23,360 bases of DNA from a virus: positions 1-23,360 of the IMG/VR virus record IMGVR_UViG_3300043446_000660, one strand, 5' to 3'. The position numbers and the translations under genes are program-made. The notes under the pieces were generated by a model. That model saw only the letters and a list, made by a program, of their open reading frames with translations. It did not search any database and was not told the origin of the DNA. Below are positions 4,411-23,360 of this stretch, piece by piece. Within the stretch, counting starts at the first letter, position 1. Each line of letters opens with the position of its first letter.

Positions 4411-4980
4411 CTATCGACGCACTTCCACGATGGAATAATACGCATATTCAAACGTGGCTTGGCAGGTCAATGGGGTGATGGGATCAATTGAAGTCGTAGC
4501 AAATTGAATTTGCCCCAATGACGTGATATACACATCATGGAACACGAACCGCAAGAGTGGAATCTTAGCGGCGTTGATGATGGTCAACCCTGCTGTCGTG
4601 CGTCCCGCTTTGTCCAGTCGGGCTGCCGGCTTTTCGGGATAGACAAAGTTAATTTGCGATTCCACAAAATCAGCGGTCGTCACACTGCGATCCGGCCCAC
4701 CCACCATGCCATACATCCATGAATAGAGTTCGCGCCACGCACGAAACTCTTCATCCACCAAAAACGAAATAGTGAGCGGGTCATACGTGAGACGGTCAGG
4801 AAGATGTTTGGTATTGATGCCAGGGGTATTTACCGTCGCCGTCCGTGCGGTCACGGCGGGAAGGTTCACTTCTTGAATGGTGAACGTGGTCATCGGCAGT
4901 CGAGCAAACTGCATGACGTGGCTAACAGAGTCAGCCGGAAACAGATTGAATGTATCGGACGGAATGGAAATAGTGCTCAT
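4411..4980 (-). CDS. Tail-tube-fold-like virion protein
   Basis: This 189-aa protein starts MSTISIPSDTFNLFPADSV. The central block (LTYDPLTISFLVDEEFRAW, then LYSWMYGM) recalls gp19/gp54-type tail tube and tube-initiator proteins, where a beta-sandwich ends with a conserved Trp-rich helix. The rest (ISHV..., PLTCQATFEYAYYSIVEV at the C-terminus) is also strand-rich and matches how tube proteins end. An upstream in-frame start at 5049 is rejected because it lies beyond a terminator hairpin (4997-5027). The chosen ATG has no Shine-Dalgarno but sits 6 nt after a CTAAATA motif, so its transcript may be leaderless. The gene follows the capsid block and precedes uvsY. The exact role (tail completion, tube initiator or vertex component) is unknown. 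Confidence 0.6.
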   Translation of the reverse strand: MSTISIPSDTFNLFPADSVSHVMQFARLPMTTFTIQEVNLPAVTARTATVNTPGINTKHLPDRLTYDPLTISFLVDEEFRAWRELYSWMYGMVGGPDRSVTTADFVESQINFVYPEKPAARLDKAGRTTAGLTIINAAKIPLLRFVFHDVYITSLGQIQFATTSIDPITPLTCQATFEYAYYSIVEVRR

Positions 4981-4985
4981 AGCAG

Positions 4986-4992
4986 TATTTAG
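4986..4992 (-). promoter_or_regulatory. Putative late promoter CTAAATA (tube-like gene)
   Basis: The minus strand reads TTCCTAAATACTGCTATG. The motif directly follows the T-tract of the terminator at 4997-5027, and its last base is 6 nt from the ATG at 4980. If it acts like a T4 late promoter, transcription would start at or next to the start codon. Confidence 0.5.
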
Positions 4993-4996
4993 GAAA

Positions 4997-5027
4997 TAAA
5001 AAAGGAGGCGAGTATTATCCCACCTCC
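4997..5027 (-). terminator. Rho-independent terminator after membrane-protein gene
   Basis: On the minus strand GGAGGTG pairs with CGCCTCC (one G-T wobble) around a loop of about 10 nt, followed by TTTTTTATTT. It separates the 5068-5583 gene from the tube-like gene. Confidence 0.8.
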
Positions 5028-5067
5028 TCGTATGTATTACTGTTATCATATCTCTGTATAATGATTA

Positions 5068-11952: not shown

Positions 11953-11960
11953 TATTTATT
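11953..11960 (-). promoter_or_regulatory. Putative late promoter AATAAATA (gp20)
   Basis: The minus strand reads GTAATAAATAATAGCATG. It differs from the T4 late consensus TATAAATA at one base, overlaps the stop codon of the tube paralogue, and its last base is 6 nt from the portal ATG. Confidence 0.45.
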
Positions 11961-12534
11961 ACTCCACCATAAAGATGGTCGAGAGATATTGAAACTCGAC
12001 ATCATAGGTTTGTACTTGCGCATCGTTCTCATATGAATAATTCAATCCGCCAATGGATGTGGGAAACGCATTAAAAAACGTATACGTACCTCGCACATCA
12101 TGGTGCAGGTCTCGCGATGTTAATTCAATCGTCGCATAGTTTCCGTTGGGATTGTATGGAAATACGTCTGTGGATACTTGGCCATTTCTATAATTTTCAC
12201 CGGCATTCCGCACGTTAGATATCGATGTATTGTAGAGAGATAACCATACTAAGAATACATTACGCACATCATAATTTTGCGTATTGTAAAACGACAGCGT
12301 AATGGGTTGAAACTGTCGTGCGGCCGGTACCTTTACGGAACGAGTAAAGTATTTTAGATCGGTAAAATCTAACTGCGCGGCGGGAAGATTTGCGGCTTTA
12401 CACAATAGCAATTGCGTTTGGTCAAATAACGGCTCATTTTGAAACGTAATTTGACAATCGTAAAACACACCACGGGATAATCCTCCCGCGGCTGCAACAC
12501 TCGCTTTGAATTGATTGATGCTGAAATCCGCCAT
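11959..12534 (-). CDS. Second tail-tube-like protein (gp19 paralogue)
   Basis: The 191-aa protein MADFSINQFKASVAAAGGLS... has the layout of a gp19 tail tube protein: a short N-terminal helix, LFDQTQLLLCKAANLPA, then TRSVKVPAARQFQPITLSFY and VRNVFLVWLSLYN, ending YDVEFQYLSTIFMVE. These blocks line up with the gp19 gene just upstream (SELPGTQHNPITVKFAGREI; VRRGLEAWFEAMN; YTCEFAYQYWEP), so the two look like diverged paralogues. It could be a tube initiator or terminator (gp54/gp3-type), or a minor tube variant. The ATG at 12534 has GAGGA about 7 nt upstream. Confidence 0.75.
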   Translation of the reverse strand: MADFSINQFKASVAAAGGLSRGVFYDCQITFQNEPLFDQTQLLLCKAANLPAAQLDFTDLKYFTRSVKVPAARQFQPITLSFYNTQNYDVRNVFLVWLSLYNTSISNVRNAGENYRNGQVSTDVFPYNPNGNYATIELTSRDLHHDVRGTYTFFNAFPTSIGGLNYSYENDAQVQTYDVEFQYLSTIFMVE

Positions 12535-12631: not shown

Positions 12632-13237
12632 TTAGACCGTGATAACGGGGTCAAGAATTCTGTCAGCAATACCAGCACCGACCAACGCCGGTTCCCAGTA
12701 TTGATACGCAAATTCGCACGTATACTCTTCAATGGCACCATCGTTTGACCAATCTAATGCGATGGGCGCTAAGGTCACCGGGAACAAATCCACAAGACGA
12801 TACCCACGAATGCGTTGGCCATTCTTGTTGTATTGATACACCGTGCCCGTGCCCGCATATCCCGATGAGGTTGGAGAGGATAACTTGCTACGGTTGCTCT
12901 CACGAGTATTCATGGCTTCAAACCACGCTTCCAACCCGCGGCGCACCGAAAAGGCTTCGTCGTTGAGGATGGTAATCGTGATGTTGTTGAATACGCGCTG
13001 ACCCGCATACTTAATTTCACGCCCCGCAAACTTGACCGTAATGGGGTTGTGCTGTGTGCCAGGCAACTCCGAGACGCGGCAGTGAAACCGCGTCTTGGCT
13101 TGTGCGAGTAACACCGCTGGTGCGGCCGCACTTCCAATCAAATTTGCCGGAAAATCCAGCGTCATTTCAAAAAGAGAAGGACGTGCGCCTCCGTCTAATA
13201 GTTGTTCTTTGAAGTCCGTAATGCTAGGAAATGCCAT
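12632..13237 (-). CDS. 19: Tail tube protein gp19
   Basis: The 201-aa protein is the gp19-type tail tube subunit (T4 163 aa), stacking in hexameric rings inside the sheath. It follows gp18 directly as in T4. Family features are SITDFKEQLLDGGARPSLFE at the N-terminus, FHCRVSELPGTQHNPITVKF in the middle, NNITITILNDEAFSVRRGLE, and the final tube strand AIEEYTCEFAYQYWEPAL. Extra residues relative to T4 include the loop TGTVYQYNKNGQRIRGYR. The ATG at 13237 has AGGAG upstream. Confidence 0.92.
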   Translation of the reverse strand: MAFPSITDFKEQLLDGGARPSLFEMTLDFPANLIGSAAAPAVLLAQAKTRFHCRVSELPGTQHNPITVKFAGREIKYAGQRVFNNITITILNDEAFSVRRGLEAWFEAMNTRESNRSKLSSPTSSGYAGTGTVYQYNKNGQRIRGYRLVDLFPVTLAPIALDWSNDGAIEEYTCEFAYQYWEPALVGAGIADRILDPVITV

Positions 13238-13255
13238 GTCGTGTCTCCTACTCCT

Positions 13256-19438: not shown

Positions 19439-20410
19439 CTACATGACCAAGAATTCGGGCGGTAACTCAAACTTGGCTTGAATGGTTTCTTCGAGTTGGG
19501 TGACTTCTCGATTGCCCTCATCGTAGATAGCGCGACCATTGAGCGTGACGCCCCCTGGCATTTGCACCCCTTCATACTTCACAAGATTCTGACCCCACTG
19601 CTTCTTCACCAATGCGGTGGCATAATCGCGGAGGAATCGGTCTGACCAAATTTTAGTATAATCCGCAGGGTTCAGCACTCGCTGTGCTTCCACCACCACC
19701 CAATCTCCGGCTTTAACTTTTTGTCGCCAATCCACATCCAAATACAACTTGTTCACATATCGATTGAATCGTAATTGAGTGTCACCAATAAACATGTCGT
19801 TCAACATTTCCATATGCGAACGAGTGAGAAAATATGAAATGACACTACTACTGGACAACCAACTCAAGTCATTCATCAAGAATTGATAGTTCCACGAGAA
19901 CAATCCCGTGCCACGATCTACGGCAAATCCATCAATAGTCAGGACGCGATAGATATTCAATACAAGGTCAGAGATGGGAATGTATTGATTATCCCAATCC
20001 CCGACATTGATTTGCGAAATGACACCCGTGGCGTTAGAGCGTTGGCCGACAATGGTTTCACCCACCTGAAAATTTTGCGTGTCATTAGGCCGACTATACG
20101 TAAACATCAAGGACGTATTTGACGATTGTCGAAATACCACTCCGGCTGTATTACTAGTTTGACCAAGAATGAGTTCATTATTTGTAAATTCACCTGTGGT
20201 GTTGGTCGTAAAAACGACATTCGACCACGTAAGTTGGTGCTTCAGATAAACTTTCTCTGACGCGGCAAAATGATAATCTTGGAAAAACGCCAATGCATCA
20301 TCAATACGCTCTTCGAGTTGGTCATCCGCGACATTCACGGTAATGACCGGCTCTCCCAAACGACGTTTAATATAGGTCTTGAGTTGTGTGCGCGTAGTTG
20401 GTAATGCCAT
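19439..20410 (-). CDS. 13: Neck protein gp13 with inserted beta domain
   Basis: The 323-aa protein corresponds to T4 gp13 (309 aa). The N-terminal block LKTYIKRRLGEPVITVNVAD (10-29) with ERIDDALAFFQDYHF (34-48) and the later block NQYIPISDLVLNIYRVLTID (141-160) are typical. Between them, residues about 70-137 form a beta-rich insertion with two copies of an ILGQTSNTAGVVF / VGETIVGQRSNATGVI signature. The C-terminus carries the family pattern KIWSDRFLRDYATALVKKQW, then GQNLVKYEGVQMPGGVTLNG. The ATG at 20410 has no Shine-Dalgarno; a CTAAATA motif ends 7 nt before it. Confidence 0.95.
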   Translation of the reverse strand: MALPTTRTQLKTYIKRRLGEPVITVNVADDQLEERIDDALAFFQDYHFAASEKVYLKHQLTWSNVVFTTNTTGEFTNNELILGQTSNTAGVVFRQSSNTSLMFTYSRPNDTQNFQVGETIVGQRSNATGVISQINVGDWDNQYIPISDLVLNIYRVLTIDGFAVDRGTGLFSWNYQFLMNDLSWLSSSSVISYFLTRSHMEMLNDMFIGDTQLRFNRYVNKLYLDVDWRQKVKAGDWVVVEAQRVLNPADYTKIWSDRFLRDYATALVKKQWGQNLVKYEGVQMPGGVTLNGRAIYDEGNREVTQLEETIQAKFELPPEFLVM

Positions 20411-20437: not shown

Positions 20438-20463
20438 CCCGTCGCAATTATTGCTGCGACGGG
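20438..20463 (-). terminator. Strong hairpin at end of HExxH gene, no T-tract
   Basis: On the minus strand a perfect 9-bp stem CCCGTCGCA / TGCGACGGG with an 8-nt loop contains the stop codon of the HExxH gene. No T-run follows; instead a second short imperfect hairpin and the CTAAATA motif do. It may be an mRNA end stabiliser, processing site or weak terminator. Confidence 0.4.
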
Positions 20464-21602
20464 TCCACCACAGTGAAAGGAACTACCGAATCAAACCGCA
20501 CAGCGGCCGCACCATCTGCTATAGGTTCTGCCGCTATTTCTTCGTCTTTGCGACGCTTTAACTCTGCCAATAATACTTCTTTTGTAGACTGTTCGACCCC
20601 GTGACTATAGTTAGGATCTAGTTGTAGTTTTTTAGCAGTTTCTTCAAGCACCCGCAACCGTTCTTCGCGATATTCTAATGCTTGTGCATACCGCGTTTCA
20701 AATTGATTGCCTAATCCATCCTTTAATACTTCGATACCTCGCGCAACTACATCTTCGCCCCATTCTAAGTAACCATCAAAAAAATCTTTACCTTCGGGGG
20801 TAAATTTAATATTGTTTCGAATCTCGGTTAGCCCGTCTTGAATTTTTGGAATATTTCCAATTAAGTATGATACCGATGCTTCTGCGGCGGTTTGTTGCTG
20901 TTCGGGATGTTTTGTGTCGTATCCCGTTAAATTTTTTGCGCATTGAATATCGGCTTCACAAAACATAATCCACGAATAAACGGCCTGCACCACCGCAGAC
21001 ATAGGTCGCTTAATATCCCACCGTACTGGAGAATCGTACAATTCATCTGGTCCGTTTAATAGTAGACGACTATCATGTGTATCAATATCAATCCCCACCG
21101 ACTCTAACCGAGCGTGACCTACTTCATGATAGATTCCTTCAGAGCATCCTTGCCAATCGTTTGCGGTCACATATACGGCATTTAATACAAGCCCCTTTGT
21201 GAGTCCATAGTCGTGCAGGCAGGATTTCATTTCATAGTGGCCTGAGGAACATCCGCGCCCATGTTTGTCCATAAACTTGGACCATTTGGCCCAATATTCA
21301 TCTAAGAATAATTGGAGCATCTGTCCACCTTCTGGCCACGCCATTAAAAAGCGGTCAATCCCCGCACAGACTTCAGGTGTCATATATGGCATACCATCTG
21401 TCATTGGATTACTAGGATGGCTAATTTGTTCGGGAGTATATTGTCGGTCTTGAACGACCGCCACCGCACCGTTACATAACCGCAGTTCTGATGTAGGTTG
21501 AATTTTTTTCCACCCGTATTTTTCATTCAAAATACTGGCAATCACCTCTGAATCATAACCATCTGGCTGGGGCTTGGCTACACGCTTCCACTCAATCTTC
21601 AT
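20448..21602 (-). CDS. HExxH protein, putative aKG-dependent peptide beta-hydroxylase
   Basis: The 384-aa protein contains HEVGH at 159-163, within EGIYHEVGHARLESVGID. About 30 residues on is YDSPVRWDIKRPMSAVVQAV followed by YSWIMFCEADIQ (189-220). This order (HExxH, then a W/R-rich D-x-RP block, then a helix with a Gly/Ala-V-Y pattern) recalls the HExxH putative peptide-modification proteins of RiPP clusters, now regarded as alpha-ketoglutarate-dependent peptide beta-hydroxylases. The match is from memory. A zinc metallopeptidase cannot be excluded, since HExxH alone is shared. The C-terminal third (about 300-365) is charged and helical, and the tail is acidic/hydrophobic. The start chosen is the ATG at 21602, with GAGGTG 4 nt upstream; a GTG at 21614 overlaps that site. 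It follows the His/Asp-rich protein by 21 nt, so it is probably co-expressed, and that protein is the obvious substrate candidate. Confidence 0.65.
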   Translation of the reverse strand: MKIEWKRVAKPQPDGYDSEVIASILNEKYGWKKIQPTSELRLCNGAVAVVQDRQYTPEQISHPSNPMTDGMPYMTPEVCAGIDRFLMAWPEGGQMLQLFLDEYWAKWSKFMDKHGRGCSSGHYEMKSCLHDYGLTKGLVLNAVYVTANDWQGCSEGIYHEVGHARLESVGIDIDTHDSRLLLNGPDELYDSPVRWDIKRPMSAVVQAVYSWIMFCEADIQCAKNLTGYDTKHPEQQQTAAEASVSYLIGNIPKIQDGLTEIRNNIKFTPEGKDFFDGYLEWGEDVVARGIEVLKDGLGNQFETRYAQALEYREERLRVLEETAKKLQLDPNYSHGVEQSTKEVLLAELKRRKDEEIAAEPIADGAAAVRFDSVVPFTVVDPSQQ

Positions 21603-21623
21603 ATTACACCTCACTAATTATTA

Positions 21624-22571
21624 CTACACAACCTCGGGTTTATCTATATGAGCAATATCGGTATGGGTATTTACAAACGATACGTCGCTATGGCTATTCA
21701 CGAACGAGACATCATTGTGTGATATATTTTGTGCCACGTTGGTGTGCGAACTACTGAACGGGGCATCATAATGTGCGTTTGAATGCGAATTAATAAATGG
21801 CGCGTCATAATACAAATTTGTATGAGAACTACTGAACGGATCATCTTGATGTGAGTTAGGAGGTCCTGCATCTGTATAATCGTCTGTATGTGCGTCTGAG
21901 TGTGAACTACCGAATGGCCATTCATCATAATGATTTTCTGGATCGTACCCTCCGTCGCCATGATCTCCAAAATCATAATGTAGATCTACGTAGGGACCAC
22001 CGTCAGTATATGAATCTTCGTGCGAATCATAATACGCATTACTAAACGGGGCATCATAATGTGCATTCGAATGTGAACTACTAAATGGCGTATCGGTATG
22101 CGCGTTCGAATGTGAACTACTGAACGGGGCATCATAATGCGCATCTGAATGAGCGATGTCCGTGTGTGCGTCCGTATGGGCCGTGTCGGTATGAAGATCG
22201 GTGTGGGCCGTGTCGGTATGTGAGTTCACAAAAGTGGTATCATTGTGCGCCCAGATTTCATCTTGTGCAGCACCGATAAAATGCAATTGTCCGTTAGCCA
22301 ATGACGGTGCATAGACGTTATCAATCCACATCGACCCCGCAAGCGCCCCAACTCCTGCGCGGTTTGCCACAAACGGTCCGTCTATGTAGCGTTCTGTGCC
22401 TAACGCATCAATGTAATGAATGGTGTTTGCTGAAATCCACATACTACCTGCCACAGCACCGGCGGGTGTTGCGACAGTTGTACCCAAAAAACGAAATTGT
22501 GTATTACTCGCGTTCATCCAATGCAAGTAAGTCCCGCTTACCCACATCGACCCATTTGATTCATTTGCCAT
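21624..22571 (-). CDS. Fibre-like protein with H-x-D/N repeat array
   Basis: The 315-aa protein has two parts. Residues 7-104 hold three fibre-type units of about 36 aa, each starting GSMW (GSMWVSGTYLHWMNA, GSMWISANTIHYIDA, GSMWIDNVY), a pattern seen in tail-fibre proteins of T4-like phages. Residues 116-310 are a repeat array with about 21 H-x-D and 5 H-x-N tripeptides, for example HTDTAHTDLHTDTAHTD, then a 13-aa unit APFSSSHSNAHYD repeated with changes. Tyr, Ser, Asp and His dominate and there is almost no hydrophobic core, so the tail should be extended and could bind metal ions. No known enzyme motif is seen. The ATG at 22571 has GGAG about 7 nt upstream. It lies between a repeat fibre gene and the HExxH gene. 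A virion fibre or precursor peptide role is inferred. Confidence 0.75.
   Translation of the reverse strand: MANESNGSMWVSGTYLHWMNASNTQFRFLGTTVATPAGAVAGSMWISANTIHYIDALGTERYIDGPFVANRAGVGALAGSMWIDNVYAPSLANGQLHFIGAAQDEIWAHNDTTFVNSHTDTAHTDLHTDTAHTDAHTDIAHSDAHYDAPFSSSHSNAHTDTPFSSSHSNAHYDAPFSNAYYDSHEDSYTDGGPYVDLHYDFGDHGDGGYDPENHYDEWPFGSSHSDAHTDDYTDAGPPNSHQDDPFSSSHTNLYYDAPFINSHSNAHYDAPFSSSHTNVAQNISHNDVSFVNSHSDVSFVNTHTDIAHIDKPEVV
21642..22226 (-). repeat. Coding repeats encoding H-x-D/N array
   Basis: Degenerate tandem units encode HxD/HxN tripeptides at intervals of 3 to 6 residues in the first part and in 13-residue APFSSSHSNAHYD-type units later. Codons vary between copies (for instance His-Tyr-Asp), so selection appears to act on the peptide rather than being a recent DNA duplication. 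Confidence 0.85.
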
Positions 22572-22598: not shown

Positions 22599-23360
22599 TT
22601 ATAATGCCCACAAGTTTGACCCTACAGGAAGCACAAACCGCCCGTTAGTAGTATTTAGGGTCAATTTTCCGTTTGCGGTAATACCTGTACTAGTATTACT
22701 ATTAAAGGTCGGTGTGGAAGTTAATGTCAGATTGATGGTGCTATTTCCCACGAACACAGTCGTCGTGTTGGCGTACACGTTCGCACCGGCGTAGAATCCA
22801 GTCGTATTGGCGACTTGGGTACCAATCGTGAGCGAGATAGGTGTCAACGTTGCCGTGTTGGTACTATTCGCCACCGACAGTGATGTGGCTGTTGCTACTG
22901 TATTTACCGTACTGTTCCCGAGGAACACGGTCGTTGTATTTGCAACCGTTCCGCCAATCGTCAACGACACCGGTGTCAAGGTGGCGGTATTGGTACTATT
23001 GGCCACGGACAGTGAGGTGGCCGTATGTACCGAGTTGACGGTACTGTTGCCAAAAAACACAGTCGTCGTGTTGGCGTACACGTTGGCACCAGCGTAGAAG
23101 CCAACGGTATTGGCCACCTGAGTACCAATCGTCAGCGAGATGGGCGTCAACGTGGCGGTATTGGTACTGTTGGCCACCGACAGTGACGTGGCGGTATGTA
23201 CCGAGTTGACGGTACTGTTGCCAAAAAACACAGTCGTCGTGTTGGCGTAGACGTTCGCACCGGCGTAGAATCCAATCGTATTCGCAATCTGTGTCCCGAT
23301 AGTGAGTGAGATAGGTGTCAACGTGGCGGTATTGGTACTATTGGCCACGGACAGTGAGGT
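22599..23360 (-). CDS. Repeat-rich fibre-like protein (partial, N-terminus missing)
   Basis: The reading frame is open at the window edge, so only the last 253 residues are seen. It consists of 57-aa units beginning VANSTNTATLTPISLTIGTQ and continuing GFYAGANVYANTTTVFFGNS, then TVNSVHTATSLS. Two full copies are almost identical, a third is shortened to 44 aa by loss of the GFYAGANVYA segment, and a fourth leads into a distinct C-terminus (TSTGITANGKLTLNTTNGRF, then VLPVGSNLWAL). Asn/Thr/Val-rich, strand-turn repeats with NST motifs are typical of long tail or decoration fibres of cyanophage-like T4 relatives. A GTG at 23348 is only an internal Val in the repeat, not the start. Confidence 0.75.
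   Translation of the reverse strand, partial: TSLSVANSTNTATLTPISLTIGTQIANTIGFYAGANVYANTTTVFFGNSTVNSVHTATSLSVANSTNTATLTPISLTIGTQVANTVGFYAGANVYANTTTVFFGNSTVNSVHTATSLSVANSTNTATLTPVSLTIGGTVANTTTVFLGNSTVNTVATATSLSVANSTNTATLTPISLTIGTQVANTTGFYAGANVYANTTTVFVGNSTINLTLTSTPTFNSNTSTGITANGKLTLNTTNGRFVLPVGSNLWAL
22652..22658 (-). promoter_or_regulatory. Putative late promoter CTAAATA inside upstream gene
   Basis: The minus strand reads ACCCTAAATACTAC within the final codons of the repeat fibre gene (Thr-Leu-Asn-Thr), 81 nt before the ATG at 22571. It may be chance, since it is coding, but its position fits a promoter for the fibre and HExxH pair. Confidence 0.3.
22875..23348 (-). repeat. Tandem 171-bp coding repeats
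   Basis: Units on the minus strand run 23348-23178, 23177-23007 (171 bp each) and 23006-22875 (132 bp, internally shortened by 39 bp). The two 171-bp units are highly similar at the DNA level, so copy-number change by recombination or slippage is likely, and short-read assembly may have collapsed further copies. Confidence 0.85.

Follow-up and report, generated by a model that had tools for sequence, protein, structure and literature searches.

The locus described here raises the question of why a phage HExxH protein should be encoded directly behind a fibre-like protein that consists largely of His-x-Asp (HxD) tripeptides, and whether the latter is the substrate of the former. The window, i.e., the whole stretch of DNA analysed, is an IMG/VR virus fragment of 23,360 bases with a T4-like structural block encoded on the minus strand (terminase, tail sheath, tube, portal, protease, scaffold, major head protein and UvsY). 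From the upstream end of the record, a cut-off fibre gene, the HxD gene, the HExxH gene and Ad2 follow each other, with these features:

22599..23360, minus strand: preceding fibre gene, 5' end lost at the record end; homologues precede the HxD gene in relatives
21624..22571, minus strand: structural, fibre-like protein with HxD repeats, 315 aa, candidate multi-site substrate; homologues among IMG/VR and Thermus phage proteins
22260..22553, minus strand: three GSMW-type units (residues 7, 42 and 79), conserved N-terminal region
21642..22247, minus strand: tripeptide array, residues 109-310, with 22 HxD and 5 HxN plus FxN (5), FxS (5) and YxD (5)
20448..21602, minus strand: aKG-HExxH-type peptide beta-hydroxylase homologue, 384 aa; TIGR04267 and AF2 fold matches
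21114..21128, minus strand: HEVGH motif, residues 159-163; H159, E160 and H163 invariant in a 10-member alignment
21003..21032, minus strand: SPVRWDIKRP block, residues 191-200; S-P-x-R-x-D-x-x-R-P invariant in the same alignment
19439..20410, minus strand: head-tail adaptor Ad2 homologue, downstream cassette boundary; likewise placed in L002-L008

The ORF coordinates confirm the earlier observation that the HExxH gene begins 21 nt past the stop codon of the repeat gene, with its ATG at 21602 and a ribosome-binding site (GAGGTG) four bases ahead of it; an alternative in-frame GTG at 21614 would give a protein of 388 aa. The earlier estimate of some 26 H-x-D/H-x-N tripeptides is close to the 27 counted. 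Elsewhere in the window, three paralogues of the tail tube (phrog_45; 4411-5049, 11959-12534 and 12632-13237) were noted, and a phage DNA helicase is apparently split into an N-terminal part (1286-2623) and a C-terminal part (2-322) with a 269-aa structural-type ORF (419-1228) between them.

The tripeptide array

A chance origin of the repeat was ruled out by 20,000 composition shuffles of the window HxD protein, which gave a mean of 5.5 and a maximum of 14 HxD/HxN motifs against the 27 present. Synonymous codons are mixed across these motifs, so that the repeat appears to be kept at the protein level. Recent tandem duplication of DNA was likewise rejected, as only local 27/39-base repeats with a 64-75% match were found, and these imperfect repeats together with the mixed codons indicate that selection acts on the protein. 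The motif spacing (3, 4, 5, 6, 7, 9 and more) does not agree with the fixed period of a beta-helix or coiled-coil fibre repeat and, being irregular, points to the tripeptide as the unit. In the window array, 44 of the 52 aromatic residues are followed by D, N or S at position +2.

The same preference was found in 55 distinct array proteins. The presumed substrates can carry some 60 motifs or even more. The +2 residue of His was Asp in 2,029 of 2,138 cases (95%) and Asn in 62, in proteins chosen by their HxD content, which makes the share of Asp dependent on the selection. In His-rich ORFs upstream of genes selected by radical SAM (rSAM) similarity, Asp stood at +2 for 544 of 685 His, a figure that counts every His, chance frames included. 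The middle position of HxD is free and accepts all kinds of residues, Pro occurring only once among the 2,029 motifs. Phe was followed at +2 by N (93), S (54) or D (44), and Tyr by D (108). The array beside a HExxH gene in one further contig (L191, 3-761) is mostly HxN (HTN) rather than HxD.

GSxW units are common to most marine, freshwater and Thermus homologues, and the N-terminal region with its GSMW-type units may serve as virion anchor and enzyme-recognition region. Gene order and these N-terminal repeats make it probable that the HxD protein is located in the fibre.

The HExxH protein

The window HExxH protein matches only the TIGR04267 model, with 21.7 bits (E 1.7e-4) and thus under the curated cut-off of 40. 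All ten aligned homologues match the same model (best 1.6e-19, 70.5 bits), and those from three other HxD cassettes exceed the cut-off (L034, 70.5; L042, 55.3; L178, 53.1 bits). Single-sequence phmmer searches of HExxH proteins against the PDB gave no match; the profile alone succeeded, matching SjiH (PDB 22nu, E 1.2e-4) over both the HExxH and the PxRxDxRP regions, the equivalent block of SjiH being PWRKDLRP. A template-free AlphaFold (AF2) model of the window protein reached an overall pLDDT of 71.8, with values of 75-97 for most of the core (residues 150-310). When it was compared with the PDB using Foldseek, SjiH (22ob) and ChlB-HExxH (8s5f) were recovered with a probability of 1.00 at modest TM-scores (0.29-0.44), and the search yielded no other convincing match and no peptidase. 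The protein combines HExxH, SPxRxDxRP and a predicted ChlB/SjiH fold. By transitive homology and modelled fold, it is a diverged aKG-HExxH enzyme scoring below the family cut-off. The resemblance to RiPP-type aKG-dependent beta-hydroxylases that the earlier note had pointed out is therefore supported by TIGR04267, the SjiH/ChlB fold and the conserved SPxRxDxxRP block, and the profile search and structure prediction that it had suggested placed the protein in this family with no metallopeptidase match.

An identity as a zinc metallopeptidase, processing the fibre or degrading the host envelope, would account for the HExxH motif; the aKG-HExxH enzymes themselves have a zincin-like fold, and PflC is described as cleaving peptide bonds when the leader is missing (PMC12636437). 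This identity was rejected, and we consider it extremely improbable, since neither a Pfam peptidase match nor a peptidase fold match was obtained, the fold search led to SjiH and ChlB only, and SPxRxDxxRP is conserved as in the aKG family.

The HExxH gene is closely linked to the array. Seven IMG/VR relatives of the protein are 67-76% identical to it, and in all six close relatives with upstream DNA the gene is flanked by an HxD/HxN array immediately before it and by Ad2 behind it. A wider scan for HExxH relatives gave 15 contigs, three of them truncated; in each of the 12 whose upstream sequence is long enough, the ORF maps, as we read them, show an array. Four proteins of the alignment used as query had come from searches for HxD or rSAM. 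Conversely, only 3 of 40 HxD-selected contigs contained a HExxH gene, which makes it an accessory in a minority of HxD cassettes. The expected co-occurrence of enzyme and array holds in one direction: in every contig with enough upstream DNA the enzyme comes with the array, but the array mostly comes without the enzyme. Independent occurrence of the two genes, which had been named as grounds for abandoning the idea, is found in this weak form, while the array hardly ever occurs without some peptide-modifying enzyme. The proposal that the array is the multi-site substrate of the HExxH protein keeps the support of family and linkage, but the HExxH protein is the minority partner and an rSAM/SPASM enzyme the constant one.

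Radical SAM/SPASM and DUF483 partners

A DNA pattern of ten fixed HxD codons, holding no rSAM information, retrieved 47 stretches from IMG/VR. Among the 40 HxD-selected contigs searched whole, 35 encoded the cassette rSAM (E 1e-50 to 1e-240). In two of the five others (L030 and L054) the HxD gene runs off the contig end, and one contig of 46 kb (L187/G035) carries an HxD fibre with no rSAM within the sequence covered. Reciprocally, an HxD gene lay upstream in most rSAM-selected viral contigs, and those without one were mainly cut off on that side; none of 78 generic rSAM loci had an HxD array. The HxD gene lies just upstream of the rSAM gene on the same strand; the two overlap by 4 bases in about a dozen phages, and in many others the gap does not exceed about 36 nt. 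A DUF483 protein, often fused to a methyltransferase, was present in 43 of 51 records. The constant partners of the array are thus the rSAM/SPASM maturase and the DUF483 protein, and not the HExxH protein. An alignment of the DUF483 family (L081:7249-8151 with 24 homologues, A4) showed invariant CC, N, R and Cys residues. Its model is confident (pLDDT 87), yet no solved relative was obtained at E < 0.1, and no RiPP recognition element was among its fold matches.

According to the earlier note, nothing else encoded nearby accounts for the HExxH protein. This is true of the window, but the window stops within the preceding fibre gene, and relatives carry rSAM genes just past that point. Two relatives with intact upstream DNA (G004 and G005) have two tandem rSAM genes upstream. 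The order in G004 is fibre, HxD protein, rSAM (673 aa), rSAM (453 aa), DUF483-methyltransferase, a 361-aa protein (glycosyltransferase-like by eye, with no match in the family search), fibre, second HxD protein, HExxH and Ad2; a contig of 109 kb (L164) follows the same cassette logic with an additional 2OG oxygenase. The latter, a 2OG-Fe(II) oxygenase-like protein encoded between the HxD gene and HExxH (12650-13243; PF13640 E 1.9e-5, one bit under the cut-off), is a second candidate hydroxylase unrelated to HExxH. In G005 the second rSAM gene ends 3.7 kb before the HxD gene, whereas the window extends only 0.8 kb there, so that the rSAM genes of the window phage would fall just off its record; the 23,360 bases of the record hold no rSAM gene. 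The synteny in G004, G005 and L164 makes it very probable that the window phage itself encodes such an enzyme.

The CxxxCxxC motif and the SPASM cysteines (Cx14Gx4C, CxxCx5CxxxC and C) are invariant in the rSAM alignment (A2), and the cassette enzymes match PF04055 above its cut-off. The nearest PDB entries were anSME (8.8e-21), which among solved structures comes closest over its whole length, and the rSAM domain of ChlB (1.6e-9). The product of anSME is formylglycine. Several cyclophane maturases were among the best NCBIfam matches, while the best scores (DynA, 62.9 bits; AmcB, 60.1 bits) lie far below the cut-offs of 450 and 425, as they do for every NCBIfam equivalog, cyclophane maturases included; the reaction type is therefore not fixed by homology. 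At least two HxD motifs, typically HGDHxD, are borne by the C-terminal part of the rSAM itself in 36 of 43 distinct complete proteins, possibly reflecting self-modification or a built-in substrate mimic. Such HGDHxD tails can be seen, e.g., in L014:9689-11707 (minus strand), L025:8507-10174 and L026:8001-9248.

The cassette extends to the cultured Thermus phages phiMa, Cumys and phiLo. In phiMa and Cumys the HxD gene lies 8 nt before the rSAM gene, followed by DUF483, the HxD proteins being phiMa_29 and Cumys_13, with Cumys_12 as the rSAM and Cumys_11 as the DUF483 protein; phiLo encodes two HxD proteins (474 and 782 aa) on the other strand. In two samples of about 250 and 248 bacterial relatives, the rSAM was found in the seed genomes only. 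A Bryobacterales MAG (L080:5486-8809) encodes two HxD peptides, 66 and 69 aa long, together with HExxH and an rSAM fused to a DUF483-like domain, in a neighbourhood in which phage genes were not recognised, and we regard this operon as a bacterial RiPP-like version of the cassette. Chengkuizengella axinellae (L081:3164-8154) has two HxD proteins, rSAM and DUF483; the two preceding proteins look Fe/2OG oxygenase-like by eye and gave no match in the family search.

Proposed maturation of the array

Three-residue cyclophane enzymes are described as linking the beta-carbon of the residue at +2, which may be Asp, Asn or Ser among others, to His C2, Tyr C3 or Phe C4; the known triceptides given there comprise His C2, Tyr-Asp, Phe-Asn and Phe-Ser links (PMC11002830). 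The HExxH enzyme of ChlB beta-hydroxylates Asp and His after cyclophane formation (PMC12636437). The arrays have the corresponding form, i.e., aromatic-X-X3 with D, N or S at X3 and a free X2, and, at the level of homology and pattern, the residues, the spacing and the enzyme pair of the cassette agree with cyclophane plus hydroxylation chemistry.

We propose that the window genes are the distal part of a phage RiPP-like maturation cassette whose substrate would be a virion structural protein and not a small peptide. The 315-aa protein would be the precursor, with its N-terminal GSxW units followed by the aromatic-x-D/N/S array. The rSAM/SPASM enzymes, encoded a few kb upstream in relatives, would act on each tripeptide and most likely close it to a three-residue cyclophane, in which the Asp/Asn/Ser at +2 is bonded through its beta-carbon to His C2 or to a ring carbon of Tyr/Phe. 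The HExxH protein would subsequently hydroxylate the beta-carbon of His and/or Asp/Asn in the modified array, and would use Fe(II), alpha-ketoglutarate and O2 for this. The result would be a stiff rod with dozens of small rings, some of them hydroxylated, exposed at the tail, and it could provide stiffness, protease resistance or receptor binding.

This explanation as a whole, a phage maturation cassette with rSAM cyclophanes and HExxH hydroxylation of a fibre-like protein, appears rather probable to us. Judging from the sequences, the array is highly probable as the substrate of the cassette enzymes, and beta-hydroxylation by the HExxH protein is reasonably likely. Cyclophane formation on the array tripeptides is only slightly favoured and forms the weakest step. 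The beta-hydroxylation of the fibre put forward in the earlier note is thereby supported in part, as cross-linking is likely the primary modification and hydroxylation a secondary one. The presumed substrate, typically a structural protein of 200-780 aa, departs from the short precursor with leader and cleaved core that defines a RiPP, short HxD peptides (66-69 aa) having been found only in the Bryobacterales locus; the cassette works like a RiPP pathway but falls outside the RiPP definition. Beta-hydroxy-Asp and His are siderophore-type ligands. A poly-cyclophane, beta-hydroxylated fibre, possibly acting as a siderophore-like iron ligand that reaches outer-membrane iron receptors, is a tentative idea, plausible rather than probable. 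Any analogy between such a rod and the Trojan-horse proposal, which concerns iron in phage fibres (PMC11705849), would be speculation.

The rSAM enzymes might instead modify the array by a chemistry other than cyclophane formation, with the HExxH protein still hydroxylating it; a different His-Asp bond, sulfatase-maturase-like oxidation of Asp/Ser, epimerisation or group attachment by the DUF483-methyltransferase would be the options. The full-length similarity to anSME, which no other solved structure matches, the scores under all NCBIfam equivalog cut-offs and the nearly constant, often methyltransferase-fused DUF483 protein are in line with such a chemistry. We nevertheless find it unlikely, given that His-x-D/N, Tyr-x-D and Phe-x-N/S with free X2 fit the described cyclophane motifs exactly (PMC11002830), that cyclophane maturases are among the best NCBIfam matches and that the aKG-HExxH precedent acts on cyclophanes (PMC12636437). 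The array could also be an unmodified metal-binding or pH-sensing fibre, with the enzymes directed at some other target such as a different fibre, the surface of the host or DNA. Both His and Asp bind metals well, iron-binding HxH motifs occur in T4 gp37 and marine phages (PMC11705849), and DNA modification has been proposed for the Thermus rSAM module (PMC11437467). Against it, in many phages the rSAM gene starts at the HxD stop codon or overlaps with it, the rSAM tail bears the motif of the array and the enzyme families are peptide-directed, so that we hold it to be quite improbable. DNA modification by the rSAM module was itself rejected: it leaves the aromatic-x-D/N/S conservation unexplained, as well as the linkage, which is with the HxD gene, and the loci examined showed no partner for DNA modification.

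RiPP chemistry is known for small toxins, antibiotics and cofactors. Here, RiPP enzyme families are tied to a long structural protein that consists almost entirely of the motif they recognise, and the linkage is seen in aquatic T4-like phages, in tailed phages from many samples and in cultured Thermus phages. If the cyclophane and hydroxylation explanation is true, phages covalently rebuild their fibres, each chain at tens of positions, and virions have a layer of chemistry that neither genome annotation nor sequence-based structure prediction can reveal. Our data offer a candidate substrate for the Thermus rSAM/DUF483 module, earlier guessed to act on DNA, and phiMa and Cumys on T. thermophilus HB8 provide a culturable test system. 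Long multi-cyclophane rods would also be of materials interest.

Comparison with known systems

The His-Xaa-Ser system (HxsA-D, NCBIfam) has His-x-residue tripeptide repeats encoded beside two rSAM genes; it is bacterial and has Ser in place of Asp. An HxsB/HxsC model was absent among the best 25 rSAM matches listed, and we treat the likeness as a lead only.

The HxH iron-binding fibres of T4 (gp37) and alterophages resemble the HxD fibre in their His-rich repeats and possible metal binding; they differ in having few HxH sites, which are unmodified, and maturation enzymes are not described in the sections cited (PMC11705849). The rSAM module of the Thermus phages Cumys and phiMa (Kolesnik 2024, PMC11437467) is the cassette described here, as its rSAM is 39-40% identical to P0002, DUF483 is present and the neighbouring unknown gene encodes the HxD protein. 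That report proposes DNA modification and, in the sections cited, makes no mention of the HxD array, HExxH or aquatic T4-like phages.

The triceptide rSAMs (XncB, OscB, YxdB, HaaB and YhhB) share with the cassette a SPASM rSAM and an aromatic-x-(D/N/S) motif that includes His and Tyr (PMC11002830). The cassette differs in its long fibre-like substrate, in the nearly exclusive His-x-Asp and in scores far below the equivalog cut-offs. ChlB and SjiH (PDB 8s5f, 9gm3, 22nu and 22ob) belong to the HExxH fold family of the window protein and likewise work alongside a SPASM rSAM. In ChlB, a bacterial enzyme, the two are fused and the substrate is a small RiPP precursor, whereas the phage cassette consists of separate genes, has a DUF483 partner and presumably acts on a virion structural protein with tens of sites in each chain.
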